A DNA stretch of 64,000 bases from Cinnamomum chago (Eukaryota; Streptophyta; Magnoliopsida; Laurales; Lauraceae), in contig CP142455.1 in the NCBI GenBank assembly GCA_038049695.1, positions 20,683,501-20,747,500 on the forward strand, read 5' to 3'. The notes beneath the pieces are model-generated. The model worked only from the letters and a program-made list of their open reading frames with translations, ran no database searches and had not been told where the DNA came from. Shown piece by piece: positions 8,804 to 58,820 of the stretch. Both the position numbers and the translations under genes were made by a program. How positions within the stretch are numbered: the stretch's first letter is position 1; every line of letters begins with the position of its first letter.

Positions 8804-8819
8804 TCTAAATACTTATGAT

Positions 8820-10440
8820 AAATCAACAGTTGAGAATTGACCATATAGCCAGTTTGGACCTTCTTAACAAGATTAACGGTTCGGATCTTGAAAGTGGAAC
8901 CCATAAGGTCGGGTTCCACACATGAGCGGCGCCATGTTGTTCATAATGGGGTCAATTGACCCTACTGAGATCTGAAAACATACTCGTAAAAATTTTGTGA
9001 ACCTCTGAGTGGGAAGCTTTTGACCTATTGAGATCTAAAAAAAAAACATCTATGAGAAGTTTTGACTCCACTAAAATCTAAAAACAATCTTATGAGAAGA
9101 TTTTGAACCACCTTAATTTAAGAGTTTGACCTGAAAGAGAGAAAATGACTTATAAATTTTTGACCCTTTTGTAACATCCAATTAAGATAAATCGTGTACT
9201 TTTGTGTCATGGGCAGTCCAATAATTTTGAATGGCTTATAAATTTAAATGGATACGCCTTAACTCATAGGAAGCTCAAATAATATTTTTATCTTAAGTCA
9301 TTTTATTTTTATCAGTTTTCTCTCATTTTGCTAATACTAAATATTTGAATGTAGGGTAAGGACCTAAAAATTACAGGTTTTTGCTCGGTTAAGCCGGTCA
9401 GCAAATGAGAGGGTAGGATAAGAGCTTAACCTCCGCCCAGCCTGCGTCCAACCCTTTGATAGCCCTAGTGGCAGGGTTGCGGAAGATAAGTATTTTTTGA
9501 CTCCGCTTACTTGAATTCCTGGAGCCGCCCTTAGTTCTACAACAAAAACGAGTATATGTAAATCAACGCCAAAACACAGTTCATCTGGCTCCAAATTCAG
9601 TTTGTGCACAATGGATGATCAACGGTTCTTCTTTTCTTTTCTTATCTTTCTTTCTTTCTTTTTCTTTCTTTTTTTTTTTTTTTTTTTGCAATTTTATGAC
9701 GATCCATGTTGATTCAGGCTATCAAATTTGAGCTTATAGTTGTTGTAGGGCTTCTAAAGAGAATGGATGGCTCAGATTTTCCAAAAGGGCCCCAAAGAAG
9801 TCCAAAAATCATGAGCAACGGTCTGACTTTTTTTTTTTTTACATTGATTTTGGACCTTCTTAACAAGATTAATGGTCTGATTTTTACATTGATTTTGGAC
9901 CTTCTTAACAAGATATGATTAATGGTCTGAACTGTACATCTAGGGGACGGACCCTTTTGCTAGATCTGAGCCATTGACCACATCGAAATTTTAGACCTTC
10001 TTAACAAACGGTTCGGATCTTGAAAGTGGAACCCATAAGTTAGGTCTCCACAATAAAAACCGGTATATGTAATTCACTGCCCAAACACTGCTCATCCGGT
10101 TTCCAATATTGATTTCACTGTGGATGATCAACTATTAGAAGTTTTTTAACTTTCTCATGATCCATGATGAATCAGGTTGCCAAATTTGACCATGCCACTT
10201 TAGGCCTCTGAAGAGACTAAATGGCTCGAATTTTACCACATAAGTCAAGAAATTATGACCAATGGTCTAAACTATTTTAAAAATATCTCTAAATATAGGA
10301 GGAATCAACGGCTGATGTTTGACTTAAAATTTTTTTAACCTTCTTAACATGATTAACGGTTCAGATTTTAAACTTATGACCCATAAGGTAGGGTTTCACA
10401 ACAGGATCTGGTAAACCTAAACTTACCATCCAAAATAGGA
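8820..10440. repeat. Degenerate internal repeats
   Basis: A module built around GACCTTCTTAACAAGATTAA followed by GGATCTTGAAAGTGGAACCC recurs in diverged form near 8857, 9850, 9899, 9990 and 10330. A longer module (an AAACACnGnTCATC core, then GGATGATCAAC, then a GATnCATGnTGATTCAGG stretch) is present twice, near 9575 and 10085. The region has no coding potential and looks like the body of an old non-autonomous element. Unit B has the equivalent at 33500-35010. One extra copy of about 50 bp near 9890 is absent from unit B. Confidence 0.6.
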
Positions 10441-10965
10441 TAACACCACATTTTTGGCTCCAATCCTGTGCTTTTGTTCATTCACATAATTTGACCTGGG
10501 GAGGTAGGATATGAGGAATCATTAGAAATGATCATTTTTTTATTTTTTATTTTTTATTTTTTTTTTGTAGTTTCAGGATTCCTATTATACCGTAAGACTT
10601 TTTATTAAATCTGAATTTTCCTCGATTGCAAGGAAAATGAGAGGAATTTTATTTGTGAACCGTTACCAAATGTACCCCAAATCTGAAATTTCCAAATCCT
10701 ATGAAAAAACATGGGTGGGGAATGCCAAGTTTGAGTTGAGTCCTAGTTTAATCTAAATAGATAAAAGTACAATGTGGTGGGTGGAAAGAGGAAAGATCCA
10801 CAGGCATGGTCATGAGTCCCGTGGCCGTGACAAGTACATTTGGTGTAACTTGTCCAGCCCTTTACACGATGGTTTTGATCATGTAAACATCAAGGTGACC
10901 ATGATTTTAATACTCTACATTGATCAACTACCAAGTCCTTGTATAACTTGGTCAACTTCACGGGT

Positions 10966-11140
10966 TTTTTTTTTTTTTTTTTTTGCTATCGGTGGTTTCC
11001 CAATTTTTTGGACTGGAATAATTTCTCCGGATCTAAAGAAAAGCCAGGTAAACTTCCCTATAGCCCCAATGTTGTGGTGCAGTTTTGAACCTACAACCTC
11101 TGCGTGCAAACCGTTATCCTAGACTAATGATACGGTACAT
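10966..11140 (-). mobile_element. tRNA-derived SINE, minus strand (unit A)
   Basis: On the minus strand this reads as a head with a B-box-like GGTTCAAAAC, then a body containing GGGGCTATAGGGAAGTTTAC, then a poly(A) tail (T run at 10966-10984). The body matches the plus-strand SINE at 12513-12690, including its CAGTGGGGTTTACC segment, which defines the family. A paired copy lies in unit B at 35572-35770, so the insertion is older than the duplication. Confidence 0.72.
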
Positions 11141-12512
11141 GCAAATGTCATCAAAATTCAAGACATACAAAACTACCATGTCAAATCTAGAGTGCCCGGT
11201 ACTGATACAACTCGGCCAAAATGGTGTTGGTTATCTAGATGGTCTAGGGACAACCCCTAATTGTATGGACCCCCACACCCCTTTTGTACACATAATGGAA
11301 GCATAAAGATGGCTAGAGTGGGCTCCAAAAAGTGAGGCTTCTGATTTCTTTTATAGAAGTGGCCCGCGTGTTTTGAGACAACCTCAAAAAGGCTCTTGTA
11401 TTTTATGTATTTTATGTTTTTACTGAGGTGTCATGTTGGCATGTTGACACAAATAAATGTTACTCATATGGAAAATAATTAAAAAAAAAAAAAAGAAGAA
11501 AAAAACACCATTAGTGCATGCTTTGCGAATCTCGCTAACTCAACTCAAGTTAGGTTAGTCACATCCGAATGCTTGATGATTAGCATGGAGATGGAAAGAT
11601 TGGATGGGGATTTTGAAAAATATGTATATCAAGTTGATCAAATGTTTTACCATAAAAAAAAAAGTTCATTAAAATGATTAATCCTAGCTAGCTCTTAGAT
11701 TTAGGTCTTTAGAGTTTAAAAGTTATACATCGTATGAAATTCTTTGATGAATTTTAAAGGTGAATAATGTCCAAATAGTGTGAAATAGAAAAAGCTGCAA
11801 TCAAAGGTCCCATGTGTGTGAGTTGATTAGATCGGTCAAAGGTCGGGCTTCTTATATGCAAGCCCTAAAAAGAGTATTTATGAAAAAGGTATTTGGGCAA
11901 AATCATCACTTAAGTCATTTGAGTATTTTCTAGGAGGTAAATTGATAAAAAAAAAAATACAGATAAGAATAATGGAGAGTATAAGTACTTTTTGTACAGT
12001 TTAATTGTTAGTCAAGGGCAATTTCAATAAAGCACAAAATAAAGGAGACTTTTTGAGGTTACGAAACTGTAGAGGCCTTGTTAAAAAAAAAAGGGTCTAC
12101 TTTTAAAGGGTGTAAATGGCCGGGTTTGGGTTTGGGTTTGGGTTTGGCTGAGCCATACCTGGACTCAGATCCAATTATATTCAACTGAGTTCGCTCTTCA
12201 CTTCAACTCATTGGGGTGTTCATGGGCCAACTTGCTCTGCCAAAGCTTATCCAAGCCAGGCAATTTAGATATCGGCCCAATATGTAGGTCCATATGCAAC
12301 CACCTGGCCTGAATTCAGATGAAGACCCAGCTCGTTTGCAAAGTAGACAACTCCCCTTTGTGATGAATATGGCAAGCCTGGCTAAGTCTCTATGCACATA
12401 TTGACTCATGTTCGGCCCATTTAATAACAGGGTCAAAAATAGAAACACGCAAAGCCCACATGCCTAAATACAGAGCCCAAACCCACCCACTACCCTCCCT
12501 ACAAGTCATGTG
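11141..12512. other. Intergenic DNA of unit A, no gene seen
   Basis: No protein-like ORF. A short (TTTGGG)4-like run lies at about 12122-12147 and is shorter in unit B, so it is an unstable microsatellite. The rest is collinear with unit B 35771-37180. Confidence 0.5.
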
Positions 12513-12690
12513 TAATTAGATCAACTGGCCTAAGATCACGGTTTGCACCCGAAGGTTGTATGTTCGAAACTGCACTATCACACTTGAGCTACAGTGGGGT
12601 TTACCCGGCTTTCCTCTGAGCCCAGAGGTATTAGTCCAGCCCAAAGGGGGTGAGAACCCTACGTCAGCGTAAAAAAAAAAAAAAAAAAAG
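12513..12690 (+). mobile_element. tRNA-derived SINE, plus strand (unit A)
   Basis: The order is an A-box-like segment (TAGATCAACTGG, better preserved in unit B as TAGCTCAGTTGA), a B box (GTTCGAAAC at about 12563), a body with CTACAGTGGGGTTTACCCGG, and a poly(A) tail at 12672-12689. Pol III internal boxes plus a 3' A tail are diagnostic of tRNA-derived SINEs. The copy at about 37180-37340 in unit B is orthologous. Confidence 0.8.
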
Positions 12691-13059
12691 TTTGGATCAT
12701 GCTTAATTGTTTTAAATGAATTGCAGGGATGGTCCCGGGTTATCCAATGAAGAGCATAAAGATATGGGTTTGACTCAATTAGAGGTGCCAACGACAGGTC
12801 CTGGACTTTCAAGAAAATTGGAATTAAGGGCGTGCAATGGTTTAGTTTTAAAGGTATATGATAATCCGATGTTTTGGTAAAGTGTGTTTATATATATATA
12901 TATATTCTTTTGGGTGAAAATGCATATAATTTCTTGATTCCGAAGAAGGCCTTGACGATGGCCCTAGGCAAGAGCACGAGCAACATAGGTTTAAATTGAT
13001 GCAAGAATGAATGGTTTTGATAAGGGTTGGTAACTCCTTTGAGAGTTCTACATGACAGT

Positions 13060-13302
13060 TGTATAGGATTTTCTTTTGAATTAGGAAAATCCTATCATAG
13101 ACAATTAAATTGAAAATCCTACAATGCTCTCCTGGAGGACTTGCCCACCCGAAAAGTAATACAAAGAATTCTTTGTATGGGACTTTCTTTTGAATTAGAA
13201 AAATCTCATTATAGACGATTAAATTGAAAATCTCACAACGCTCTTGTGAACTTGTGAAGGACTTGTCCACCCAAAAAGTAATACAAAGAATTTTGTGAGT
13301 AC
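13060..13302. repeat. Two-copy tandem repeat, about 120 bp unit
   Basis: The motif TTTTCTTTTGAATTAG followed by ATTAAATTGAAAATC and AAGTAATACAAAGAATT occurs twice head to tail (about 13060-13178 and 13179-13302). The same pair is present in unit B at about 37695-37935. Open frames across it are shadows. Confidence 0.8.
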
Positions 13303-15591
13303 AATGAGAAAAAGTGCAGTGAGCAATCCATCTCCACTATTTTCGGTACTTTGACCCACCTCTGTCAACATTAACAATGTGTATGAGGTTTTTAGCCAAA
13401 AACAAAAAAAAAAGCTGTATGAGGGTATTGATGTCATTTCATGAGCGTTCTTAGAGAAAATCTCCGACCATGGGGACATCATTTTCTTCGTGGACGGCAA
13501 GAGGTTTCAAATAAAACACTATTTCCCCATGTCAGCAGAGTGATGAGAATAACCACATATTTTAAGGAAATAACAACACTATCCATACCAATCTTGGTTT
13601 GACTTTCAACTTGCAAGAGGAGTGTGGGTGTACCTGCCTTGGAGATGTGAAATGGGCCGGGGCGATGGTCTGACACGGCCTGTGCCAGGCCGTAAGTACC
13701 GGGCACGTCACGTCTGCCAATAACGGTATACCAAAAATGGCCGGCATAAAATGGCTATTTTTTAAAAAAATTATTCATTTTACCCCACCCACCCCCATTT
13801 TAAAAAATTATTCATTTCACTCCCCCGCAAAAAAAAAAGGAAAAAAATGGTCATATAATGAGTATTTTGTGTCATTTTCAATTTACAAAGTCTATAAATA
13901 TTTGAACCATCTCATTCTTCTTAGTGGAGTAGGTCAAGTTTGACCGAACAACTTAAATATCTTTATTTACAATGGGTTATATTTATATGCTTTACTGGTA
14001 AAGATTCTTCATGATTTTGCGTGTGCATGTTTTAGAATTGTGGTATTCTTGTTCAAAGTGCTATTAATGGATTAAACATGGTAGGCAAACCTGTATGGAC
14101 TTTAGGGGTCATTCATATCTCAGGCCTTATACCTAGTCTCCAGTTTGTGGATTGTACTGCATATTCTCAGAGCATGGTGCAACTTTCTAAGAACATTACT
14201 AGTAGGTTCCTCTGCTAAAACGAGGTTAACAAATGTCACGTTTTTCCACATTTTCCTCACGCAGGGGGTGAATCCAGGAAGGAGCAGAAGATTTGAAAAA
14301 CCCAACCAAGTCACTAGCCACTCTGGTGGATGTAAATGGGGATTCAGGCAGGGGCAAACCTAATATGGATCCTCATTGCACATGTATAGATTCCTTTAGT
14401 TACAAGAATTTATAGGATTAATTTCTGGTAGATGTCTATGAATTTCAAATGCTGAATTTTTGAATTGTCTAAATTTTGCTAGAGATTTTTATTAAAAAAC
14501 CCAAGCACCTAGAGTTTCATAAATTCCAAGTCTATAAATACTCGAACCCTCGCATTTTTCTCAGTGGAGTAGGTTGAGTTTGACCGAACCACTTAAATAT
14601 TTTCGTCATTCTCCATACTTGTGTTCTAATTTTTAATTTTAATATCTAAAAGGAGAAAATAATTAATTGAAAAAAATTAAAAGAGGCACGTCGAGCACGG
14701 TAGGCATGAAGGACCGGCCTGCCCAGCCCGCTTCATCCGTTTGACATGCCTACCTGCCTCCCTCTCCTGGAATGTGTGAGTTACTAGTATCTCACATGCC
14801 TGAACTGTCTCTCTCTATATGTGCGAGTTACCTTCATCTTGTAAGTGTGGGTTGTGCCTCTTTGCATATGTGAGTTTCATCACCTGACATGTATGAGTCT
14901 CATAGGTATCAACTCCTTAGTTGGATAAAAAAGAGGAGTGCGGAGTGCGGGTGTTTGTTGCATTTGCATCAGCGCATTTTGGACTGGCGTTTCCTTCCCC
15001 TATCTTCCATCTATGGTTAATTAGGTTCTTGTAATGAGACGATTATGTGATTGAGAGGAATATTGGTCCAATTTTTCATGTAGGTCATTTTTGTCATCAT
15101 GACACTCTTTTAATTGAAATTGGTTCTTCTGAAAAAAAAAAAAAGAAATTAATTTCTTACAAAAGTGGTCACTAGTCAGATCCTTTATTCCTACGAAAAC
15201 TAATAGAGCCAAAGTAAATCCGCTCATTGCACAAACATATCATATGTGGAGCTATTTTTACCTCGTAAAATTTCGATTTCAAACCCAACTCCTTGCCTTT
15301 TTTTTTTTCTTTCTTTTTTAGTTCAAGGAAGAGAATGAATAATCCTGGTTGGGATTAGACTTCACTAAGCAAATTCCACCTTGACGTCTATAAAATGTGT
15401 CTATCTCCAAACAAGTAGCACCTCCTTTTGATATCCGTTGTTGTCACTTTTTCATCCTCTTGTATTTGTATTTCTGGAAAACTCATTTTACAGTGGTGTA
15501 ATTGAAACTCCAACGCAAGTACTATAAATCCAAGTGTTCCTCACCTATCCAAACCAAACCACTCAAAATCACTCTCTCGTCAACTGGTGTG
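13303..15591. other. Intergenic DNA and PPR upstream region (unit A)
   Basis: A direct repeat of about 75 bp (AAGTCTATAAATA through AGTTTGACCGAAC) occurs at about 13886-13960 and 14527-14602. The stretch 14040-14400 between them contains short open frames on both strands, but nothing I recognise. The insertion site used by the solo LTR in unit B corresponds to ATACT at 14615-14619 here and is empty. Confidence 0.5.
15523..15529 (+). promoter_or_regulatory. Probable TATA box of PPR gene copy A
   Basis: TATAAAT lies 109 bp before the main ATG and is followed about 30 bp on by a pyrimidine/A-rich leader (CCTATCCAAACC). It is conserved in unit B at 43248-43254. A second candidate, TATAAAA at 15389-15395, is also conserved in B. 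The choice rests on distance only. Confidence 0.45.
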
Positions 15592-15633
15592 ATGATGGAG
15601 TCTGCTCTCATTCAAGTTAAGATTGATTTATAG
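15592..15633 (+). other. Upstream ORF, 13 codons, in PPR copy A leader
   Basis: ATGATGGAG... encodes MMESALIQVKIDL and stops 4 nt before the main ATG at 15638. It is out of frame with the PPR protein. If transcription starts near 15550 it would be the first ATG on the message and could lower translation. Copy B keeps the first 12 codons, then diverges. Confidence 0.55.
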
Positions 15634-15637
15634 GGTA

Positions 15638-18430
15638 ATGAAGCTTTTCCAACACAAGATCCTCCAACAATCTCCTCAGAAACGCCTCTTTTCACTCCTC
15701 AACAAACCCATCTCAATCCAATCTCCTACTAACATTAGCAGTGAGAAATCCAGAGCTGTTCTTAGCTTATTCCAAAACTGGGACCTCTCTCTAACACCCA
15801 CTACATACTCCAAGCTCTTAGCAGAATGCAGTGCCTCCAAATCCCTCAACAAAGGCATGCAAATCCATGCCCACATCACCAAATCAGGGTTCTCCCAAAA
15901 CCCTCCTCTCCGCAACCATCTCATCAGTCTCTACTCCAAATGCCGGGTTTTTGGTTACGCCCACCGGTTGTTCGACGAAATTCCCGACCCAGATTTTGTG
16001 GTGTGGACTGCTATCATTTCTGGGTATGCACAGAATGGGCTCGGGGAAGAAGCCCTTTACACCTTTCGCAGAATGCGTTTGTCGGGTGTCGGGTGTAATG
16101 CGTTCACTTTCCCGAGTGCGCTTAAGGCGTGCTCGATCACTGGGGATTTGAGACAGGGGCGGCAGATTCATGGGATTGTTGTTGTTACTGGGTATGAATC
16201 AGATGTCTTTGTTGCAAACACTTTAGTTGTGATGTATGCGAAATGTGGGCTGATTTTGGATTCACGGAAACTGTTTGATGAGATTCCTGACCGGAATGTT
16301 GTGTCTTGGAATGCATTGATCTCTAGTTATGTCCAGAATGAATGTTGTGGGGAGGCGTTGCGGCTTTTTTGGGAGATGGTTGTGAGTGGAATCAAACCTG
16401 ATGAGTTCAGCCTGTCGACTATCTTGAATGCTTGCACTGGGTCAGAGGATTTGCGCCAAGGGAGGAGAATTCATGGGTACTTGATACGGCTTGGGCATGA
16501 TTCAGATTCATTCTCTGCTAATGCCCTTGTTGATATGTATGGGAAACTCGGAGATCTTGAGGATGCGATGGCAGTTTTTGAGAAAATTGCTCGACCTGAT
16601 ATTGTTTCGTGGAATGCTGTTATTGCAGGTTGTGTTCTCCATGGGTACCATGATTGGGCATTGGAGCTATTCGGTGATATGAAAGAGTCGGGGACAGCTC
16701 CAAATATGTTCACTTTATCCAGCATTCTTAAAGCATGTGCAGGGTTGGAGATGAAGGATTTGGGTAGGCAGGTAAACGCACATGCGATCAAGACTGGTTT
16801 TGATGACTTGTTTGTGGGTGTTGGGCTCATAGATATGTACTCGAAATGCAATCTTACGGAGGATGCAAAAATGATTTTTGAGTCGATGCCTGAACAGGAT
16901 ATGATTTTGTGGAACTCTATGATTTGTGGTTATTCTCAAAATGGGTATGATAATGACGCTATATTCCTTTTTTCCAAAATGCGAAAGGAAGGATTTAGCT
17001 TCAATCAAACTACTTTATCCGCAATCCTTAAATCAGCTGCTAGCATGCAGGTTGTCAGTGGAAGTAAACAATTGCATTCTCTTGCTGAAAAATCAGGCTA
17101 TGGATTTGATATTTATGTTATTAACAGTCTTGTTGATGCCTATGGGAAATGTGGCTGTGTAGAGGATGCTAGGAGAGTTTTTGAGATATGCCCATTTGGA
17201 GATGTTGTGTCCTTTACATCTATGATTACTGCTTATTCTCAACACGGGCAAGGAGAGGAAGCTACAAAGCTTTTCTGTGAAATGCTTCATAAGGAGCTGA
17301 AGCCCGACCGGTTTGTTTGTAGTAGCCTTCTTAATGCGTGCGCCAATTTATCTGCTTATGAACAAGGGAAACAGATTCATGTTCATGTCTTGAAGTTGGG
17401 GCTCATGTTGGATGTGTTCGCTGGGAATGCTCTCGTTAACATGTATGCCAAGTGTGGAAGCATAGAGGATGCTGGTCGTGCCTTCTCAGAGATACCAGAG
17501 AGAGGGGTTGTCTCATGGTCTGCAATGATCGGGGGGCTTGCTCAGCATGGATATGGAAAAAAGTCGCTTGATTTATTCAACCAGATGCTTAAAGAGGGAG
17601 TGACACCGAATCATGTAACTTTAGTTAGTGTTCTTTCTGCATGTAACCATGCTGGCCTGGTAACAGAAGCCAAAAACTATTTTGAATCAATGGAAGAGCT
17701 GTTTGGTATTGAACCAACGGAAGAACATTGTGCATGTATGATTGATGTTCTTGGGCGTGCAGGGAAATTAAATGAGGCAGTTGATCTTGTAAATAGCATG
17801 CCTTTCAAAGCAAATGCTTCTGTGTGGGGTGCACTTCTTGGTGCATCCAGAATTCACAAGAATTTAGAATTGGGTAGACAAGCAGCTGAAATGCTTTTCA
17901 TTCTTGAACCTGAGAAATCAGGAACACACGTGCTGCTTGCAAACATGTATGCTGCAGCAGGTAGGTGGGAAAGTGTGGCTGAAGTGAGAAAGCTAATGAA
18001 AGATAGCAGGGTTAAAAAGGAGCCTGGGATGAGTTGGGTTGAAGTGAAAGACAAAGTACATGCTTTTATTGTTGGGGATAGAAATCACTCTAGAACTGAA
18101 GAGATATATGCAAAACTTGATGAACTGAGTGATCTTATGAGCAAAGCTGGGTATGTGCCCATGGTAGATATTGATCTTCATGACGTAGAACGAGCAGAGA
18201 AGGAAAAGCTTCTTTACCACCATAGTGAGAAAATTGCTGTGGCTTTTGGACTGATCAGTACTCCAACTGGGGCTCCCATCAGAGTTAAGAAAAACCTTCG
18301 AGTCTGTGGGGATTGCCATACTGCATTCAAGTTCGTATGTAAAATTGTTTCAAGGGAGATTATTGTTAGAGATATCAATCGGTTTCATCATTTCAGAGAT
18401 GGATTGTGTTCTTGCGGGGATTACTGGTGA
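15638..18430 (+). CDS. DYW-type PPR protein, RNA-editing factor (copy A)
   Basis: An intronless 930-residue pentatricopeptide-repeat protein of the PLS-E-E+-DYW class. These proteins bind organelle transcripts site-specifically and the DYW domain deaminates C to U. The in-frame stretch extends to a TTG at 15623, but the first ATG (MKLFQHKIL) is taken as start. The N-terminus is basic and Ser-rich, as in mitochondrial or plastid transit peptides. PPR motifs run from about residue 50 to 700 (repeated NALVDMYGKCG-, VVSWNALI- and YAKCG-like segments). Then come the E/E+ region with KEPGMSWVEV and the DYW domain with the zinc/catalytic signature HSE (862-864), CGDC (890-893) and terminal CGDYW. 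All key residues are intact and no frameshift is seen. The family is certain; the target site and organelle are not readable. A CACTA transposon sits about 600 bp downstream. Confidence 0.95.
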   Translation: MKLFQHKILQQSPQKRLFSLLNKPISIQSPTNISSEKSRAVLSLFQNWDLSLTPTTYSKLLAECSASKSLNKGMQIHAHITKSGFSQNPPLRNHLISLYSKCRVFGYAHRLFDEIPDPDFVVWTAIISGYAQNGLGEEALYTFRRMRLSGVGCNAFTFPSALKACSITGDLRQGRQIHGIVVVTGYESDVFVANTLVVMYAKCGLILDSRKLFDEIPDRNVVSWNALISSYVQNECCGEALRLFWEMVVSGIKPDEFSLSTILNACTGSEDLRQGRRIHGYLIRLGHDSDSFSANALVDMYGKLGDLEDAMAVFEKIARPDIVSWNAVIAGCVLHGYHDWALELFGDMKESGTAPNMFTLSSILKACAGLEMKDLGRQVNAHAIKTGFDDLFVGVGLIDMYSKCNLTEDAKMIFESMPEQDMILWNSMICGYSQNGYDNDAIFLFSKMRKEGFSFNQTTLSAILKSAASMQVVSGSKQLHSLAEKSGYGFDIYVINSLVDAYGKCGCVEDARRVFEICPFGDVVSFTSMITAYSQHGQGEEATKLFCEMLHKELKPDRFVCSSLLNACANLSAYEQGKQIHVHVLKLGLMLDVFAGNALVNMYAKCGSIEDAGRAFSEIPERGVVSWSAMIGGLAQHGYGKKSLDLFNQMLKEGVTPNHVTLVSVLSACNHAGLVTEAKNYFESMEELFGIEPTEEHCACMIDVLGRAGKLNEAVDLVNSMPFKANASVWGALLGASRIHKNLELGRQAAEMLFILEPEKSGTHVLLANMYAAAGRWESVAEVRKLMKDSRVKKEPGMSWVEVKDKVHAFIVGDRNHSRTEEIYAKLDELSDLMSKAGYVPMVDIDLHDVERAEKEKLLYHHSEKIAVAFGLISTPTGAPIRVKKNLRVCGDCHTAFKFVCKIVSREIIVRDINRFHHFRDGLCSCGDYW

Positions 18431-19026
18431 GTTTGTAGGGACAAGTTCTGCAAAACTGATGAGAATCATTAATGATATTTGCTAGGACGGATTCTGCAGT
18501 GATACGAGCAGGTCGGTTGAATGAAACTGCAATATATATTTTTTTTATATAGCCTACCTTCCAGCAATCCAACAAGTGTCTGGTGGGTCCCATAACCATC
18601 CATATCACCAAGGTTTTCATATTTGTTTTGGGGCATGATCCATTCATCGTCGAGCCCATTGGATGCAATAGCAAACAAAGAATAGCGCGCCTGTAACTTC
18701 TGCTTGCCTTGAAGAACCTGTTTTGCTCAAGACCATAGTACAATTCCTCTAATTTAATTTTCTTGAGAATTCTTTCCGGCTATTCCTTCGACACTGATAA
18801 TTAACCTGTGTAACTAATAAGAGCTGTGGCCTATATGGTTTTGAACTTCAATTATTGGTTGGCAGTAAGAATCTTATTTCCAGTGTTGTTCCTATTAAAA
18901 GAAGGAAAATTTTTATAGCCGAACTGTAGTCTAATACAACTCTACTCTGCCTGGGCTTAGGACCTGCACATAATCTGTGGAGCTGATATCATGAGATTTG
19001 CTATAATTTTGTTGGTAAGGGAAACA
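18431..19026. other. 3' flank of PPR copy A
   Basis: A non-coding stretch from the stop codon to the transposon, differing from unit B 46511-47105 at about six positions by eye. The last three bases, ACA (19024-19026), are the left target duplication of the CACTA element. Confidence 0.6.
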
Positions 19027-19747
19027 CACTACGTCAAAAGTGGCTAAAAACGACACAAATAAGGAAGCAAGACCACTGATTTGGGCTGTGGTATTTTTCG
19101 ACCGTTGTATTTTTATAAACCACAGTTGCCGTTCGTGGTTGATTTCGTCAAAAAAAAAAGAGACCAAAACGTCCCGCCCTTTTCCTCTCCTGCGCCCCTC
19201 TATTCTTCTCCCGCGCTCTCCCCTCTTTTCCTCCCGCCTCTGCTCTCTTTTTCCATTTTTTTTTCTCAAGCACAGCATCACCAGTACTGCATTGTCTCTC
19301 GACTCGCCGATTACACTCCGGCCATCCATCACCATTTCCCATCTTTTCGTTCTTCTCCTCATCCTCATCTATCTCGTTTCTTTCTTCCCTGCATTGGCAG
19401 CACTTCCCACCCTTTCTTCTTCTTTTCCTTCATCTCGCCTTCATGATGATTCGCAGGTATGTTGATTTCTTCCTTTTCCTCTGCATTTCGTCATTTATCT
19501 AAACCCTAAAAGTTCATCCAACTTGGGAAATCTTCGATGGAGATTCACTTGCAGATCTCTGTACAAAATAATGACTCATTGTATTTTAAGGGCAAGAAAC
19601 TGTGGCTATTTTGAGGGCAGAAACAATGGCCCATTTTAGGTTATCGACTGTGTGCTTTTTTGAGTGTTCTTTCTCTTTCTAACCCCCTTCCCATTCAACC
19701 TGGAGCCCTAGCGGTTCCGTCGGAATCTAACTCCGGTCCTTATCTCC

Positions 19748-28267: not shown

Positions 28268-28347
<80 letters not shown>

Positions 28348-35571: not shown

Positions 35572-35612
<41 letters not shown>

Positions 35613-39185: not shown

Positions 39186-39190
39186 GTACT

Positions 39191-42100
39191 TGTAAGACAC
39201 CGACCCGAGTGAATCCGATTAGTGTTAATTAAGTCGTGTGTTAGTTCTAAGCTTGATTAGTGATTTTGGCTAAGTTGGGTTTGGAATAGCTTTTGAAATA
39301 GTTTTGGGGAATTTTGATTGCTTTGTGATTAGTGGGGCCCTTTGGGGGTTCCTTCTTTATGACTTTGCATGCGCTTGAGGATTTATCGGAGATTTTTTCA
39401 TTCATTGTTTTAATCTCATTTTATTTGTATTGTTAACCCCTACAACTTTCATGTTGATCCCGTCCCCGTTCGAGATCCCTAAACTCGATTTCATAGCCTT
39501 GAGGGCAAAACAGTCATTGTGCACTAAATCTGTACCAAAAACTTGATATTCCCGAAACTCGCGAAACATATACTTTTTGGAAACTAGATATTTCGGCGAT
39601 CATTTCTTCCTTCTTCGCGAATTCGTCCGAGACCCCGAAAGACATGATTTCAACCCTTCAATGTCTTAAGTAGTGGGGCCCATCTCCCTTTGCTTATATA
39701 GGGAGACTCATCTTCTTCATTTTTCCTTTTCCAGCACAAAAAGAGAGTCTAGGGTTTGTTTGGCAACTTTTCTTCTTCTTCTTGCTCTCTCCACCTCCAA
39801 TCCACACCAAACTTGCACCAACATCAAAATGGAGATCATCGTCTTCTTCTTCATCACCATGGCTCTCTATTGATACCATTTGTGAAGAAAACCCTCCATT
39901 CCAAGATCTTCATTGAACTTACTCTTGCCATTAGAGGACCTTACAAGTAAGTAATCATTCCATTCTTCTAGAATTGTATTCTTCTAGACCTAGAGAAGCT
40001 TCATCTCCATTATTGTAGGGTTTCCCCTTCTATTTCATTGTTTGACCATTTTAGGGTTTGTTTTTGGGGATTTTGTTCATAGCTTGAATCTTTAGCTTGG
40101 AAGAGTATTAGAGCTTGATTTCATTGATTAGAGACCAAAGGCAAGTGGATGATTTGATTTTTTTATACGCTTTCAATGATTTTGGTATTTTTCCACTCAT
40201 GCCTATTTATTGCATTGGTTTGAAATAAATGTTCATGATAGAGTTTGGCAGTGCATTTATGACTTATAAGTGTATTGGTGCATGGCATTTAATTTCCTCT
40301 TGTTTTGTCCTAAATGTATTCTATTGTGAAATGGTTTCCTTCTTTCTTTATTTGTATTGAATTTGATGTTAATGGAGGAGGTGATGGAATGAACCCATAT
40401 TGGAGTTGTGGAGAAATGTAGATAGTTGCATTGGAGGAGCTTTTAGCTCAGTTTTATGGCAAGGATTAAGTTGAAGTGAGGAGAATGGTTTTGAGGAGGA
40501 AAATGGCCCAAATCTGAACACAGTGGGTGTTTCCCGCACCTAACGGTCAGCCAGCGGTCACCTGTCGGCTGGCTGACCGCTAGATAGCCGAATAGTCGCG
40601 GTTACTTTTCAAGAGAGTACCATTTTCCACCTGAAAACACGGTCAGCCTCACGGTTAGCCCGCGGCTAACCGCCGAACCCATCGGCGGCTAACCGCCAGC
40701 CAACCGACCTATTCGGTTACTTTTCCAGAGAGCAACATTTCCACCTGAAAATACGGTCAGCTAGCGGCTAACCGCCAGCCAGCCGAACCATTTCGGTTAC
40801 AATTCCAGTAACCTGTCTTTAAGTCAGGCCAACCGCGTTCAGCCGCGCGGTCAGCCAGCGGCTAACCCCGAATCCAACGACGGCTAACCGCCATCTGACC
40901 GCAGGTAACCGAAATTACCCAGACAACCATTCCGGTTCGCTCGAGAGCTGAGCTTTGTCGGTCAAAGGAGATTCACTAAAGCATTGTATGAGGCCATTTG
41001 AGGAAGAAACTATATCACGAAGATGTCATTCGAAGTTTTGAAAATTTAAAGTGCATAAGGAGCCCGGAATGTCCCCAAACTCAAATAGTACCAAATTATT
41101 ATTAGATCGACATACGGGATCCCTATTCCCTTCAAATAAATCTTGAACCCGATATTTTACCCAAGATTTCAATTGTTTATTGTACTTTATCGATCCCGAG
41201 ATTTATACTATATTTCTTGTTTTCCCGAAAGCATTGGATGACACTTATAATAGTTACTTGTCTTGAAGTGCATTGCACGACATGAAACGACAGTGTGCCC
41301 TTGAGCACCCCCGTCTTGCCCGTTTATTTATTGTACTTGATTTCCTTGCATATGTCTCGATTTGTTATTTGACCTATTAGTCGGCACCACTAAGCTTGGA
41401 TAACCCTGTTGGTCTGATCCACCGACTTGGAGATCCCCCTCTTGTCCCGCCAGCTGCAGTTTGGATCCCGCTACCAGGTTATTACCGTGGTCTTGTCCCG
41501 ATGCCGCAGATTGCTACTGTGGTTCCCGATGCCCGGCTCGCGACCGTGGTCATGTATAGTATATGTATATGTATTTATAAGATCCACTGTTTATCCTCAC
41601 CTCGAGTGACTGAGATCAGTGCCTAGTTATTGCTCTGTCACTTTAGTGACAGAGGACTTAGCTTCGTGTGGTTGTCATCTTGCTTGTTTCTCGTTTTCTT
41701 GGTTACCTTACCTGTTTTATAATGCATACTTGTATTTGAATAAATGTTTTATCTCTTTATATAAATTGTTATTTAAACAGGTCTAAATGCTTTTGAAGGT
41801 ACATTCATTTACTATCGTATTGTCATTGTATTTCGCCCATTTGTCAAACCGTCGTGTTTGACCCACTCTTTGATACTCAGGTCCCGTTGTCGATTATCCC
41901 GAGGAGGAGCACGAGAAGGCGGTCGGAGAACCGCAGCAGTTAGTTGAGTGGCGTGCTGATGACGTCATTTAGACGTTTGGTCGCTATGAGAGACTTAATA
42001 TTTTGGGAACTGTTCAACCATTCTTTGGATTGGTATTTTATTATATTGGCCTTTGTTGGCCTCTATTTTTGGGAAATGTAATTAAATGATCTTGTATAAA

Positions 42101-42373
42101 CTTCAACCTTACTTTTTGGTAACATGCTAATGATCATTGTTCACTCTGATACGGTATTATACTTGGATTTTTATCTTTATGATTTGAGAAGGATTGAATA
42201 TTTGATTTGCTACACGCTTCCCCAATTAATAGAAATGTTCATAGATGGTTGTGATATCCTCACCGCGGACACCTGTGGGAAATTAAATAAATGTATAGCA
42301 CAAATCCGATGTGTTATCATTATCATCATCATTATTAGTCCTGATCTCGGATTCCTGGTCCGGGGTCGCGACA
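39191..42373. mobile_element. Solo LTR, 3,183 bp (Ty3/Gypsy-type)
   Basis: The ends are TG...CA (TGTAAGACACCGACCCG at the left, GGTCCGGGGTCGCGACA at the right), flanked by the 5-bp target duplication GTACT (39186-39190 and 42374-42378). Unit A has the single unoccupied site (ATACT, 14615-14619). No second LTR, primer binding site or gag/pol is present, so this is a solo LTR left by LTR-LTR recombination. A TATA box (TATATAG, 39695-39701) and downstream AATAAA-like signals (about 41740) fit U3-R-U5. The GACCCG...CCGGGGTCG termini resemble plant Ty3/Gypsy chromovirus LTRs, which is the basis for the lineage call. At 3.2 kb it is a long LTR. Short ORFs inside it are not considered genes. Confidence 0.88.
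40536..40910. repeat. GC-rich internal repeats in the solo LTR
   Basis: Many copies of a short motif family around CAGCCAGCGGCTAACCGCC, in both orientations (GCGGCTAACCGCC is nearly self-complementary), occur in an otherwise AT-rich LTR. They could form strong secondary structure in the leader RNA of the element. Confidence 0.75.
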
Positions 42374-43247
42374 GTACTTGTGTTCTAATTTTTAATTTTA
42401 ATATCTAAAAGAGGCACGTCGAGCACGGTAGGCATGAAGGACCGGCCCTGCCCAGCCCGCTTCATCCGTTTGACATGCCTACCTGCCTCCCTCTCCTGGA
42501 ATGTGTGAGTTACTAGTATCTCACATGCATGAGTTGTGTCTCTCTCTATATGTGCGAGTTACCTTCATCTCGTAAGTGTGAATTGTGCCTCCTTGCATAT
42601 GTGAGTTTCCATCACCTGACATATATGAGTCTCATATGTATCAACTCCTTAGTTGGATAAAAAAGAGGAGTGCGGGTGTTTGTTGCATTTGCATCAGCGC
42701 ATTTTGGATTGTCGTTTCCTTCCCTATCTTCCATCTATGGTTAATTAGGTTCTTGTAATGAGACGATTATGTGATTGAGAGAAATATTGGTCCAATTTTT
42801 CATGTAGCTCAATTTTGTCATCATGACACTCTTTTAATTGAAATTGGTTCTTCTGGAAAAAAAAAAAAGAAATTAATTTCTTACAAAAGTGGTCAGAACT
42901 CAGATCCTTTATTCCTATGAAAAGTAATAGGGTCAAAGTAAATCCTCTCATTGGACAAACACATCGTATGTGGAGCTGTTTTTACCTTGTAAAATTTCGA
43001 TTTCAAACCCATCTCCTTGCCTTTTTTTCTTTTCTTTCTTTTTTAGTTCAAGGAAGAGAATGAATAATCCTGATTGGGATTAGACTTCACTAAGCAAATT
43101 CCACCTTGACGTCTATAAAATGTGTCCATCTCCAAACAAGTAGCACCTCCTTTTGATATCCGTTGTTGTCACTTTTTCATCCTCCTGTATTTGTATTTCT
43201 GGAGAACTCATTTTACAGTGGTGTAATTGAAACTCCAACGCAAGTAC

Positions 43248-43254
43248 TATAAAT
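43248..43254 (+). promoter_or_regulatory. Probable TATA box of PPR gene copy B
   Basis: TATAAAT is in the same context as in copy A (15523-15529). It lies 464 bp before the main ATG at 43718 because of the extra leader DNA in this unit. Confidence 0.4.
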
Positions 43255-43316
43255 CCAAGTGTTCCTCACCTATCCAAACCAAACCACTCAAAATCACTCT
43301 CTCATCAACTGGTGTG

Positions 43317-43361
43317 ATGATGGAGTCTGCTCTCATTCAAGTTAAGATTGATTTTGTTTGA
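43317..43361 (+). other. Upstream ORF, 14 codons, in PPR copy B leader
   Basis: The same beginning as in copy A (MMESALIQVKID), but it ends with Phe-Val-stop because the sequence switches to DNA absent from copy A. It terminates about 356 nt before the main ATG. Confidence 0.5.
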
Positions 43362-43717
43362 TTTGATCTAAGCCTGTGTAGTTTTGGTTGGTTGTGTTCG
43401 CTTCTGTTGTCTTTTCTTAATATAACTTTCCTTTTCACCAATAAAAGATAGTTATGATAGATTACAACTGGAAATAAAGCTCTTCTGCTTGTTCACTGCA
43501 GTGCCATAATAATATATTAGAGTGGAAGCTCTTTAATTTTGACAAGTACTTTTCAATTTTTGTGCAGCCATTTCTTGATCTCGATGAACGATCAAGATCT
43601 CCGGATGAAAAGTGCCACCAAGTGCAATCCATACGTATTTTAAATTCAGCCGATGGGCAATAAGAAGACTATAAATGTAAGACACAAATCCAAAAGCGCG
43701 CCAATTTCTTGGGGGGA
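43355..43717. other. Leader segment present only in PPR copy B
   Basis: About 355 bp separate the shared leader (ending GTTAAGATTGATTT) from the shared ATGAAGC. In copy A the gap is only about 8 bp. An acceptor-like TTTTTGTGCAG precedes 43567, so a 5' UTR intron from about 43354 is possible. Either copy A lost this DNA or copy B gained it. No target duplication was seen, which favours a deletion in A. Confidence 0.6.
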
Positions 43718-46510
43718 ATGAAGCTTTTCCAACACAAGATCCTCGAACAATCTCCGCAGAAACGCCTCTTTTCACTTCTCAACAAACCCATCTCAATCCA
43801 ATCTCCTACTAACATTAGCAGTGAGAAATCCAGAGCTGTTCTTAGCTTATTCCACAACTGGGACCTCTCTCTAACACCCACTACATACTCCAAGCTCTTA
43901 GCAGAATGCAGTGCCTCCAAATCCCTCAACAAAGGCATGCAAATCCACGCCCACATCACCAAATCAGGGTTCTCCCAAAACCCTCCTCTCCGCAACCATC
44001 TCATCAGTCTCTACTCCAAATGCCGGGTTTTTGGTTACGCCCACCGGATGTTCGACGAAATTCCCGACCTAGATTTTGTGGTGTGGACTGCTATCATTTC
44101 TGGGTATGCACAGAATGGGCTCGGGGAAGAAGCCCTTTACACCTTTCGCAGAATGCGTTTGTCGGGTGTCGGGTGTAATGCGTTCACTTTCCCGAGTGCG
44201 CTTAAGGCGTGCTCGATCACTGGGGATTTGAGACAGGGGCGGCAGATTCATGGGATTGTTGTTGTTACTGGGTATGAATCAGATGTCTTTGTTGCAAACA
44301 CTTTAGTTGTGATGTATGCGAAATGTGGGCTGATTTTGGATTCACGGAAACTGTTTGATGAGATTCCTGACCGGAATGTTGTGTCCTGGAATGCATTGAT
44401 CTCTAGTTATGTCCAGAATGAATGTTGTGGGGAGGCGTTGCGGCTTTTTTGGGAGATGGTTGTGAGTGGAATCAAACCTGATGAGTTCAGCCTGTCGACT
44501 ATCTTGAATGCTTGCACTGGGTCAGAGGATTTGCGCCAAGGGAGGAGAATTCATGGGTACTTGATACGGCTTGGGCATGATTCAGATTCATTCTCTGCTA
44601 ATGCCCTTGTTGATATGTATGGGAAACTCGGAGATCTTGAGGATGCGATGGCAGTTTTTGAGAAAATTGCTCGACCTGATATTGTTTCGTGGAATGCTGT
44701 TATTGCAGGTTGTGTTCTCCATGGGTACCATGATTGGGCATTGGAGCTATTCGGTGATATGAAAGAGTCGGGGACAGCTCCAAATATGTTCACTTTATCC
44801 AGCATTCTTAAAGCATGTGCAGGGTTGGAGATGAAGGATTTGGGTAGGCAGGTAAACGCACATGCGATCAAGACTGGTTTTGATGACTTGTTTGTGGGTG
44901 TTGGGCTCATAGATATGTACTCGAAATGCAATCTTACGGAGGATGCAAAAATGATTTTTGAGTCGATGCCTGAACAGGATATGATTTTGTGGAACTCTAT
45001 GATTTGTGGTTATTCTCAAAATGGGTATGATAATGACGCTATATTCCTTTTTTCCAAAATGCGAAAGGAAGGATTTAGCTTCAATCAAACTACTTTATCC
45101 GCAATCCTTAAATCAGCTGCTAGCATGCAGGTTGTCAGTGGAAGTAAACAATTGCATTCTCTTGCTGAAAAATCAGGCTATGGATTTGATATTTATGTTA
45201 TTAACAGTCTTGTTGATGCCTATGGGAAATGTGGCTGTGTAGAGGATGCTAGGAGAGTTTTTGAGATATGCCCATTTGGAGATGTTGTGTCCTTTACATC
45301 TATGATTACTGCTTATTCTCAACACGGGCAAGGAGAGGAAGCTACAAAGCTTTTCTGTGAAATGCTTCATAAGGAGCTGAAGCCCGACCGGTTTGTTTGT
45401 AGTAGCCTTCTTAATGCGTGCGCCAATTTATCTGCTTATGAACAAGGGAAACAGATTCATGTTTATGTCTTGAAGTCGGGGCTCATGTTGGATGTGTTCG
45501 CTGGGAATGCTCTCGTTAACATGTATGCCAAGTGTGGAAGCATAGAGGATGCTGGTCGTGCCTTCTCAGAGATACCAGAGAGAGGGGTTGTCTCATGGTC
45601 TGCAATGATCGGGGGGCTTGCTCAGCATGGATATGGAAAAAAGTCGCTTGATTTATTCAACCAGATGCTTAAAGAGGGAGTGACACCGAATCATGTAACT
45701 TTAGTTAGTGTTCTTTCTGCATGTAACCATGCTGGCCTGGTAACAGAAGCCAAAAACTATTTTGAATCAATGGAAGAGCTGTTTGGTATTGAACCAACGG
45801 AAGAACATTGTGCATGTATGATTGATGTTCTTGGGCGTGCAGGGAAATTAAATGAGGCAGTTGATCTTGTAAATAGCATGCCTTTCAAAGCAAATGCTTC
45901 TGTGTGGGGTGCACTTCTTGGTGCATCCAGAATTCACAAGAATTTAGAATTGGGTAGACAAGCAGCTGAAATGCTTTTCATTCTTGAACCTGAGAAATCA
46001 AGAACACACGTGCTGCTTGCAAACATGTATGCTGCAGCAGGTAGGTGGGAAAGTGTGGCTGAAGTGAGAAAGCTAATGAAAGATAGCAGGGTTAAAAAGG
46101 AGCCTGGGATGAGTTGGGTTGAAGTGAAAGACAAAGTACATGCTTTTATTGTTGGGGATAGAAATCACTCTAGAACTGAAGAGATATATGCAAAACTTGA
46201 TGAACTGAGTGATCTTATGAGCAAAGCTGGGTATGTGCCCATGGTAGATATTGATCTTCATGACGTAGAACGAGCAGAGAAGGAAAAGCTTCTTTACCAC
46301 CATAGTGAGAAAATTGCTGTGGCTTTTGGACTGATCAGTACTCCAACTGGGGCTCCCATCAGAGTTAAGAAAAACCTTCGAGTCTGTGGGGATTGCCATA
46401 CTGCATTCAAGTTCGTATGTAAAATTGTTTCAAGGGAGATTATTGTTAGAGATATCAATCGGTTTCATCATTTCAGAGATGGATTGTGTTCTTGCGGGGA
46501 TTACTGGTGA
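43718..46510 (+). CDS. DYW-type PPR protein, RNA-editing factor (copy B)
   Basis: Tandem paralogue of the gene at 15638-18430, also 930 residues from the first ATG (the frame stays open back to a TTG at 43709). It is a PLS-class PPR array with E/E+ and an intact DYW domain (HSE 862-864, CGDC 890-893, terminal DYW). It differs from copy A at seven residues: Q10E, Q46H, L111M, P118L, H583Y, L587S and G762R (A to B, positions approximate for the 930-residue protein). By eye only 11 nucleotide substitutions separate the two CDSs. The 5' leader differs (extra 355 bp), so expression may differ. None of the changes touches the DYW catalytic signature. H583Y and L587S lie within a PPR repeat and could alter RNA contact. 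Confidence 0.95.
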   Translation: MKLFQHKILEQSPQKRLFSLLNKPISIQSPTNISSEKSRAVLSLFHNWDLSLTPTTYSKLLAECSASKSLNKGMQIHAHITKSGFSQNPPLRNHLISLYSKCRVFGYAHRMFDEIPDLDFVVWTAIISGYAQNGLGEEALYTFRRMRLSGVGCNAFTFPSALKACSITGDLRQGRQIHGIVVVTGYESDVFVANTLVVMYAKCGLILDSRKLFDEIPDRNVVSWNALISSYVQNECCGEALRLFWEMVVSGIKPDEFSLSTILNACTGSEDLRQGRRIHGYLIRLGHDSDSFSANALVDMYGKLGDLEDAMAVFEKIARPDIVSWNAVIAGCVLHGYHDWALELFGDMKESGTAPNMFTLSSILKACAGLEMKDLGRQVNAHAIKTGFDDLFVGVGLIDMYSKCNLTEDAKMIFESMPEQDMILWNSMICGYSQNGYDNDAIFLFSKMRKEGFSFNQTTLSAILKSAASMQVVSGSKQLHSLAEKSGYGFDIYVINSLVDAYGKCGCVEDARRVFEICPFGDVVSFTSMITAYSQHGQGEEATKLFCEMLHKELKPDRFVCSSLLNACANLSAYEQGKQIHVYVLKSGLMLDVFAGNALVNMYAKCGSIEDAGRAFSEIPERGVVSWSAMIGGLAQHGYGKKSLDLFNQMLKEGVTPNHVTLVSVLSACNHAGLVTEAKNYFESMEELFGIEPTEEHCACMIDVLGRAGKLNEAVDLVNSMPFKANASVWGALLGASRIHKNLELGRQAAEMLFILEPEKSRTHVLLANMYAAAGRWESVAEVRKLMKDSRVKKEPGMSWVEVKDKVHAFIVGDRNHSRTEEIYAKLDELSDLMSKAGYVPMVDIDLHDVERAEKEKLLYHHSEKIAVAFGLISTPTGAPIRVKKNLRVCGDCHTAFKFVCKIVSREIIVRDINRFHHFRDGLCSCGDYW

Positions 46511-48130
46511 GTTTGTAGGGACAAGTTCTGCAAAACTGATGAGAATCATTGCTGATATTTGCTAGGACGGATTCTGCAGTGATACGAGCAGGTCGGTTGA
46601 ATGAAACTGCAATATATATATTTTTATATAGCCTACCTTCCAGCAATCCAACAAGTGTCTGGTGGGTCCCATAACCATCCATATCACCAAGGTTTTCATA
46701 TTTGTTTTGGGGCATGATCCATTCATCGTCGAGCCCATTGGATGCAATAGCAAACAAAGAATAGCGCGCCTGTAACTTCTGCTTGCCTTGAAGAACCTGT
46801 TTTGCTCAAGACCATAGTACAATTCCTCTAATTTAATTTTCTTGCGAATTCTTTCCGGCTATTCCTTCGACACTGATAATTAACCTGTGTAACTAATAAG
46901 AGCTGTGGCCTATATGGTTTTGAACTTCAATTATTGGTTGGCAGTAAGAATCTTATTTCCAGTGTTGTTCCTATTAAAAGAAGGAAAATTTTTATAGCCG
47001 AACTGTAGTCTGATACAACTCTACTCTGCCTGGGCTTAGGACCTGCACATAATCTGTGGAGCAGATATCATGAGATTTGCTATAATTTTGTTGGTAAGGG
47101 AAACATTTGGTTGTAGCTTTATCTGATGCCGGTTTGTTTTACATGATTGACAGTGCTATGGAGTTACTGTAGATTTCATGCGGCCAAGAGAACAATTAAA
47201 TCTATTGATGATATTCTTTTGTAATTGTTAGAAGTTCTGTAGCAATGAGAAGCACCATAATTTTGACAGATGCTGATGAAATTAAAGGACTGCAATCAGT
47301 TTTTTTTTTTTTTTTTTCCATATTGTGTAATTTTAGAAGCACCAGTTTCAATTGAATTTTAAAAGTGTAATTTACAAGTTAGAGTTTGTTGGTCTGTTTT
47401 ATTTGACAATCACAAATGAATTGACCTTTTTCTACTTAACAATGATGGTTTCCTTTGACAGCATTTTTCTTTTATAACAATTCTACTCTTCTGACAAACC
47501 TATTTAAGTTGTAATTGTAATATTGGTTTGCCTGAGATTGATGGGTAAACCTAAGTTGATGATGATGACATAATGTGCCTTTTTTGTATGTTCCTTTCTT
47601 CCAGTTATGACCATAGGATCACAGGACCATGCCTAAATCAAGTCATTTCGAATGGTATTCTCTTTTTCATTTGACAGCCAGTTAATTCATACTTTACAAA
47701 CATCAGATATAAATGCAACTTTTAGCAAGCTTTTGCCAGTTTAACTTTACAAACATCAGATATAGCTGCAACTTTTAGCAGGCTTTTGCAAGTTTATTTT
47801 TGTGCTCATACATTGCATGCCAAATCTGGTTTCTTGATATTTTCTTGGCTTGCTGTTGGCAGTAGTTCTTTTGGATCTAATTGGTTTTGTCTATAATTGT
47901 TTTTCTTCCACTTCCTTTTATCGGGTCATTTAAGCAAATCACTCATCTACATGTGTGGTCTATGCATGTTATTTTAAGATGTGACTGGTGTTGATGGACA
48001 ACATATTGGTTCATGGCCATACTTTCCAAGTCCAATGATTCCACAGCCTCTTCTCTTGGGGTTCTCTTTTCTCCAATCCCATAATCCATATTGATTAGAG
48101 GCCGTGCCATATGACCTCTTGGCCCATCCA
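46511..48130. other. 3' flank of PPR copy B; CACTA empty site
   Basis: Collinear with 18431-19026 plus 32323-33348. The empty CACTA target (AAACATTTGG) is at 47101-47110. No gene seen; minus-strand open frames such as 47943-48239 are conserved in both units but resemble nothing known and cross low-complexity DNA. Confidence 0.55.
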
Positions 48131-49945
48131 TATCTAATATACTAAGGGAATGTTTTTTCCTGCATTTAACCACATCCCTCCATTTTAACAATCCTAATTT
48201 TCTAAGACACTTTGGGACAGGTGTCCATCCAACATCCACTGCCCTCTCCTAAATAAAATAGCAGTTGTCACACCCACGTCAACATCCCTCTACTTCATCC
48301 CCACTCTTTCGTAACTGAACCCAACTGAATGTAGCAAAAACGGCAACAACATACTTCTTACTACTTGCTCTCTCTCTTCTCTACCATTTCATCAAAAGAA
48401 CGGAAAACGGCGGTTTCCTTAGGCAGGCGTCTACGACTCGGAGCGGCTAACAACTGCGATTTACTTCAAACCAGAACCTCTCTCTCATGGTATGGATCTC
48501 AATCAATAGGAAGAATAAACTTACATCGGATGTTCTGACATAGGTAGGCTTATCTGTATATGATAGTATTTTGTTTCATTTTTTATGTGTTCGCTTCTCT
48601 GTATATGATAGTACTTTATTTCATTCTTTCTGTGTTATAGTGAATCGTTTTTGTTCAAATATGTTCGTTACTGGGATCTCTGTGATGTGCTATGCATGCA
48701 TCTGTTCGAAATGTATGTTTATGAATGGCAAAGTTTGAAAAAGACAGTGAAATAGAGAAACTGTTTTGAGTTTTAGGAAGTGAGAGAGAGAGAGAGGCAG
48801 AGAGAGTGGAAGGGAAAGGGAGAGAGAGAGGGGTGGAGTGAGGGGGAGAGCAACAGTGGAGAGAGAGAGAGAGAGAATGATGCAGGGAGGCAGGGAAGTG
48901 GAGAGGGTGCATTGGCAGGGAGACTGGCAGTGAGATGGAGGGAGAGTCGGGCGGGGTGAGGAGAGGAAGTGGGAGAGAAAGAGGCAGAGAGAGAGTGGCA
49001 CGGAACAAGTCCTCCTATGAAGAGAGGAAAAGAAAAAATCGTGATTGTGATAGAATGGAAGAAAGAAAGAGAGAATTAGAGAGAGTGGGATGGTGAGATG
49101 GGTGGGGGTAATTTTCGTTGGCAGGGAGGAGTGAGAGAGAGGAGGAAATGGTGAAGTGGGTGGGGGGAGAAGTTAACTCACGTGGACAATGAGTGAAGTG
49201 AGAGAGAGAAAATGAGATGGTGGGAGTGGGGTACATCACGTTGGCAGGTACGAGTGAGTGAGGGAGAAAACAAGGAAAGAAATAGAGAACAGTGAAGGGG
49301 AAAAATGGGGAAAAACAGAGAGAGATGGAGAGTGGCTGGGTTCGCCGGAGATGGGGAAGCTCGGCGGTGATGGTGGCGGTGCTGATGGTCTCCTAAGGCG
49401 ACGGCGGAACTCCGGGACAGTGGGGCAGCGAGATGTTTGGCAGGGAGGAGTGAGATAGTGAAAGTAATGGTGAAGTGGGTGGGGGGAGAAGTTAACTCAC
49501 ATGGACAATGAGTGATGGCTGGGAGGAGAGATGAGTGAGAGACATGAGATATGAGATGAGATGAGATGAGAGAGTGGTCTAATAATTTCGGAATTCTCAA
49601 TCACAGGTTGGAATATTATATCACTTATTAAGTAATATTATATCACTTATTGGTTGATAAATTTGATAACCGAATAATAATCATCGGGTGATTATGACAG
49701 AAAATGTTGATCAAACTGATGATCAAACTATATTAAGTAATTTTATATCACTTATTGGTTGATAAATTTGATAACCGAATAATAATCATCGGGTGATTAT
49801 GACAGTAAATATTGATCAAACTGATGATCAACCCGTCAACCTGATCTGGGAAAGGTTGCAGTTTATTACCAGTTTATCTACAATCGGTAATGAAGATCAA
49901 CAAGCAAATCATGAAGATATTTACCGAATATTACCGCTAATTGGT
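48131..49945. repeat. Long tandem repeat unit T1 (1,815 bp)
   Basis: It starts TATCTAATATACTAAGGGAA and recurs at 49946 and 51809. Internal order: an AT-rich start, a leader-like stretch with GGCGTCTACGACTCGGAGCGG (about 48427), a GA-rich core (about 48738-49560), a 115-bp tandem doublet (49620-49850) and an end with GATCAACAAGCAAATCATG. Open frames on the CT-rich strand are Pro/Ser/Leu/His-rich translations of low-complexity DNA, not genes. Confidence 0.88.
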
Positions 49946-58804: not shown

Positions 58805-58820
58805 GGCTTGTGGAGGGGGG

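Follow-up and report, generated by a model that had tools for sequence, protein, structure and literature searches.

A head-to-tail duplication of a DYW-type PPR gene in Cinnamomum chago, with a divergence step probably left by later homogenisation of the gene half

Tandem duplication followed by homogenisation of one half of the duplicated unit is an ordinary kind of event, both processes being well known, and exchange between tandem plant paralogs has already been described in excerpts of two earlier reports (PMC6771003; PMC5075784). Here we analyse a stretch of 64,000 nucleotides (hereafter the window) from the genome of Cinnamomum chago (GenBank assembly GCA_038049695.1, contig CP142455.1, positions 20,683,501 to 20,747,500), in which a gene for a DYW-type pentatricopeptide repeat (PPR) protein is present in two tandem units. 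The two units, A and B, exhibit a roughly 7-fold lower divergence over the half that carries the gene than over the other half. Judging from the comparison of the two units, the probable explanation is an older tandem duplication in which gene conversion, or an exchange equivalent to it, later homogenised the gene half.

The RPP8 locus of Arabidopsis thaliana, in the portions of PMC6771003 that describe it, likewise consists of plant gene copies duplicated in tandem as direct repeats, and exchange between the paralogous loci is described for it. However, RPP8 is an immune-receptor gene, examined in many accessions and with fixed differences between its tandem copies, whereas the present case consists of one genome and one homogenised half. 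The Restorer-of-fertility-like PPR genes of rice, according to excerpts of PMC5075784, form clusters of restorer-like genes, in contrast to the single DYW-type pair found here. False heterotype duplications, as characterised in part of PMC9516828, likewise consist of adjacent copies with allele-like differences; these are mostly separated by gaps, whereas the join in the C. chago locus is gapless.

Self-comparison of the window reveals two collinear units in direct orientation, arranged head to tail and connected by one novel join (Table 1). The similarity is distributed over four direct blocks (8804-14622/33484-39193, 14678-15629/42406-43354, 15633-19026/43713-47105 and 32323-33485/47103-48269). 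The right edge ends in ...GCAGTTGTC, the left edge starts with TCTAAATAC, and the join reads ...GCAGTTGTCTAAAAAC. A first-pass annotation of the window, made from the letters alone, had described a head-to-tail duplication of about 11.4 kb with both breakpoints visible, and the self-comparison confirms it; the position that it gave for the join, the overlap of only TC and the right edge at 48269 are all exact. It was also correct in stating that a complete DYW-PPR gene and two short interspersed nuclear elements (SINEs) had been duplicated: both reading frames are intact, and two A-tailed SINE-like repeats are present in each unit. The unit measures about 11.2-11.4 kb once the later insertions are removed. 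The compared pieces measure 11,383 bp in A and 11,216 bp in B; these counts leave out 32 bp at 42374-42405 in B, which adjoin a long terminal repeat (LTR)-like element, and the second copy of the target site at 32323-32325 in A. Over 11,128 aligned bases these pieces exhibit 312 mismatches, a likeness that is not due to chance. The presence of the duplication in the assembly and the position of its edges are thus directly established.

Table 1. Features of the duplicated locus, in coordinates of the window
Feature	Position	Strand	Description
Unit A	8804-33485	+	self-comparison; includes 13.3-kb CACTA insertion
Unit B	33484-48269	+	self-comparison; includes 3.2-kb LTR-like insertion and 359-bp indel
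Unit A/B junction	33484-33485	+	TC common to both edges
Left part of unit A	8804-15697	+	286/6640 aligned sites differ from B (4.31%)
Right part of unit A, CACTA element left out	15698-33485	+	26/4488 sites differ from B (0.58%); proposed homogenised tract
DYW-type PPR gene, copy A	15638-18430	+	single open frame, 930 aa
DYW-type PPR gene, copy B	43718-46510	+	single open frame, 930 aa
SINE-like repeat S1	A 10965-11122, B 35590-35747	-	25/158 differences
SINE-like repeat S2	A 12526-12689, B about 37194-37339	+	19/149 differences in unit alignment, 15/146 in separate alignment
CACTA-type DNA transposon in unit A	19027-32322	+	13-bp ends CACTACGTCAAAA; 3-bp target duplication ACA
tnp2 transposase frame within CACTA element	24352-26103	.	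open frame for the transposase
LTR-like element in unit B	39191-42373	.	3183 bp; TG...CA ends; 5-bp target duplication GTACT
Stretch of about 359 bp in B, absent from A	43355-43712	.	ends 5 bp before start codon of copy B
Array of a dispersed repeat, just over two units of about 1.8 kb	48131-52091	+	right edge of duplication within first unit

The divergence between A and B changes abruptly near the 5' end of the gene. The right part, about 4.5 kb, begins at about codon 20 of the PPR gene and takes in the rest of the gene and the 3' flank; the left part is about 6.6 kb long. The likelihood ratio for a step at this place is 167, compared with a largest value of 80 in 2000 shuffles of 100-base blocks (0/2000 reach it). 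Among seven segmentations, the best by the Bayesian information criterion (BIC) has six segments. Both SINEs stand out in it, and the left half outside the SINEs is fitted at 2.8%, 2.8% and 4.6%; a single segment, at 0.58%, covers the right part. The longest run free of mismatches extends over 1077 bases. The left boundary of the alike tract falls at 15289-15776, varying with the class of change counted, and diverged sequence flanks the tract only on its left side; on the other side, the alike sequence continues up to the edge of the unit. Loss of CpG was considered as the cause of the step and rejected, since transversions exhibit the step too: with the SINEs left out, transversions alone amount to 92/6346 in the left part and 11/4410 in the right part, a contrast reached by 0/1000 shuffles. 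All noncoding changes outside the SINEs (222/5862 versus 24/2101) place the break at 15289, and again 0/1000 shuffles reach the step, if narrowly (43.8 against a largest shuffled value of 42.6). The divergence step is thus directly established. A neighbouring local duplication, located about 15-62 kb downstream of the window and the only neighbour examined in this respect, has no such step, with 5.1-7.3% divergence over five blocks of at least 200 bp.

The predicted proteins of both gene copies contain PPR repeats and the E, E+ and DYW domains, which places them in the DYW-type PPR family. DYW domains are characterised by the signature HxE...CxxCH, and HSE and CGDCH were found in the DYW domains of both copies. 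The closest proteins, among 120 listed of 5120, are a transcriptome protein (96% identity), a Cinnamomum kanehirae protein (91%, or 95% without gaps) and a Magnolia sinica protein (79%). The last is named At5g04780-like, mitochondrial, and has the same PPR, E, E+ and DYW domains. The C. kanehirae entry is one sequence, whereas the pair described here consists of two near-identical copies. The coding sequences of A and B differ at 11 positions, seven of which change the protein; as judged by the related proteins, three of these changes are in A and four in B (position 111 being assigned by two of three relatives). Another 11 residues are common to A and B and unlike both nearest relatives, nine of them being unlike Magnolia as well. 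The differences are concentrated at the 5' end: codons 1-118 account for seven of them (7/354 bases) and the most alike core (codons 119-930, 15992-18430) for four (4/2439). Silent differences follow the same pattern, with 3/78 sites in codons 1-118 and 1/527 in codons 119-930. That selection on the protein keeps the copies so alike was considered and rejected, given that the step is seen at silent sites and that most of the coding differences change the protein.

The first-pass annotation had treated the locus as the product of one clean event. The non-homologous join stands, but the 7-fold divergence step between the halves of the units calls for a second event or another cause. In the history that we propose, a tandem duplication of about 11.4 kb would have arisen by the joining of two non-homologous break ends, through end joining or template switching. 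The units would then have diverged to about 4% and gained different insertions. Later, a recombination event, either interlocus gene conversion or an unequal exchange with the same outcome, would have overwritten the right part of one unit, including almost the whole PPR gene, with that of the other. The CACTA element lies within the homogenised part of A only, so its insertion most likely occurred after the homogenisation. We infer both conversion as the source of the step and this order of events.

Several points weigh against this history. The comparison is confined to A versus B and gives neither the direction of the transfer nor the ancestral state. Conversion tracts were about 500 bp in mean minimum length in one yeast study and 200-300 bp in most follow-ups, according to a portion of PMC3924818; the tract here, 2.4 to 4.5 kb, is long beside these averages, which weakens the case for one simple conversion event. 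Divergence also varies within the left half, with the range of values outside the SINEs given above, and a seven-segment fit, which is not the BIC-best one, delimits a short alike stretch within that half (2/379 at 12082-12472). The 3' flank differs more (18/1755) than the gene core; the split between the two has a likelihood ratio of only 10 and is absent from the segmentation, so a second exchange is at most suggested. Within the exon, the cut at codon 118 was picked after the differences had been seen, so that the P value for the silent sites (Fisher P 0.007 on rounded site counts) is optimistic. The N-terminal part also evolves faster between species at the protein level (10/118 versus 25/812 in the comparison of copy A with protein P0001), so only the silent sites speak for a step within the exon. 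Noncoding transversions taken alone, 88/5862 versus 11/2101, do not give a significant contrast (97/1000 shuffles reach it). Finally, two haplotypes placed in series would yield the same kind of step.

A single duplication with no later exchange would account for the step if the right half, that is the gene body and its flank, mutated more slowly than the repeat-rich left half. The fast change of the SINEs in the left half, the unevenness of that half and the non-significant contrast in noncoding transversions agree with such a rate difference. However, transversions outside the SINEs still fall about 6-fold, the drop lies inside a single exon and is seen at silent sites, the 500 bp immediately 5' of the gene differ at 20/498 positions, and all noncoding changes outside the SINEs keep the step, if narrowly; this explanation appears unlikely. 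It is very doubtful that the coding half is being kept alike by repeated exchanges (0.16% in the core, 1.0% in the 3' flank) with the leaders and upstream regions drifting apart (4%, and the 359-bp indel), owing to selection or to a local recombination hot spot. If true, there would be two genes for nearly the same RNA-editing protein under different control. The duplication could also be false: if the plant is heterozygous, units A and B could represent its two haplotypes, placed in series. The 4.3% and 0.6% parts would then reflect local differences in the age of the alleles, with the insertions being heterozygous. Sharp changes in divergence are expected between haplotypes, and contigs typically end in places such as the dispersed repeat that holds the right edge. 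Moreover, in nine of the ten contigs examined for length (C1-C5, C8-C10 and C12, with C6 as the exception) the length is exactly divisible by 2500, a pattern suggestive of scaffolds assembled in fixed bins and not of raw contigs. On the other hand, no N occurs in 264 kb (the window and 100 kb on each side) and the join is gapless, although some false duplications are joined by unsupported sequence, according to excerpts of the literature on them. The join offers no overlap for an assembler to use, 4.3% would be high for alleles, and another local duplication cluster lies close by. In a search of the 1.06-Gb genome (14 contigs), 40 of the 670 candidates for a 401-base junction query were scored, and this locus alone gives a match over the full length of the query. 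For the PPR coding sequence, 40 of 98 candidates were scored; of the 44 matches listed, two are full-length and 42 are partial, with no more than 82% identity, and no third full copy of the gene is among them. The single junction match, the two full gene copies and the gap-free surroundings would favour a real duplication, and the gap-free join together with the lack of a third full gene copy makes haplotypes in series less likely; we consider them quite improbable.

As to how the duplication was made, unequal crossing-over between repeats would suit a region in which repeats are common and the neighbouring 1.8-kb array lies at hand. It was nevertheless rejected, in line with the first-pass annotation, and we regard it as extremely improbable: the edges have TC alone in common, and an 80-base piece across the left edge matches only itself and the copy at 33484, without any match to the right-edge repeat. 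Weak relatives (73%) of 8793-8920 are located inside the units, at 10275-10400 and 34885-35011, and these are distinct from the right-edge repeat. The same annotation had taken the clean junctions to suggest a microhomology-mediated event, and here we differ from it. Among 200,000 random position pairs, joins of window sequence share at least two bases in 17% of cases; a 2-base overlap is thus commonplace by chance and singles out no microhomology pathway. Microhomology mediation beyond plain end joining is not supported, and the sequence at the edges supports a head-to-tail duplication that would have arisen by a non-homologous join. The dispersed repeat begins about 137 bp before the right edge, and two further units of the array run past the breakpoint; the arrangement at 48269 is therefore the older one, and that at 33484 is the newly formed join. 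The 5' end of the repeat, A|TCTAATATAC, is exact in five of eight fetched loci, two of them being units A and B and three lying elsewhere with unlike upstream flanks; presumably it resembles the end of a Helitron. The repeat occurs on many contigs, in places as several copies side by side, and a partial inverted copy is located at 52287-53125.

The SINE pairs are about 10-16% diverged, as compared with 239/6273 (3.8%) in the rest of the left half. The A copy of S1 is 84% identical to its partner, which is no closer than it is to the best unrelated copies. The differences of S1 were polarised with the 20 best of 38 other listed copies, chosen by likeness to the A copy. All but three of the 25 differences could be polarised, and C>T or G>A changes make up 21 of these 22, of which unit A has 12 and unit B nine, in the contexts CG (three), CHG (three) and CHH (15). 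S2, with 9/14 polarised differences of this type, makes a weaker case for decay. Replacement of a SINE by other copies of its family was rejected, the S1 changes being almost all C>T or G>A and spread over both units, as fits independent decay. A fast loss of methylated cytosine in both SINE copies thus appears likely. Since their differences are mostly C>T or G>A, the SINEs are poor clocks.

The insertions that distinguish the units, like the divergence step, go beyond the first-pass annotation. The element in A exhibits CACTA ends, a 3-bp target duplication and a tnp2 transposase, and accordingly is a CACTA (En/Spm) transposon. No internal repeat was seen in the LTR-like element of B (39191-42373), which is therefore possibly a solo LTR. 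A relative of it (73-75%) is located about 112 kb downstream, at 151644-154677 in window coordinates and outside the window, and both may be solo LTRs. The third difference is the stretch of about 359 bp in B. The earlier claim that the gene had been duplicated with its promoter holds for the gene, but calls for a caveat on the promoter, the indel ending 5 bp upstream of the start codon; the leaders of the two genes consequently differ.

Elsewhere in the window, an open frame on the minus strand (58310-58990) matches photosystem I PsaG/PsaK and is probably PsaG. A tRNA-Trp (CCA) gene was identified at 59835-59906, and a tandem pair of 116-bp repeats, 96.6% identical, at 61684-61914. The neighbouring duplication mentioned above lies beyond the end of the window, at 78806-94871 and 112531-125545 in window coordinates, with its copies about 31-34 kb apart and further pieces at 145282-148320.

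The two kinds of sequence within the units would mislead a dating of the duplication in opposite directions. A date taken from the gene would be off about 7-fold relative to the rest of the unit, and one taken from the SINEs would be off the other way, about 3- to 4-fold. The paired SINEs also make it possible to gauge, within one locus, the fast C-to-T loss that repeats undergo. Scans that date tandem pairs by synonymous divergence would call this duplication very recent.

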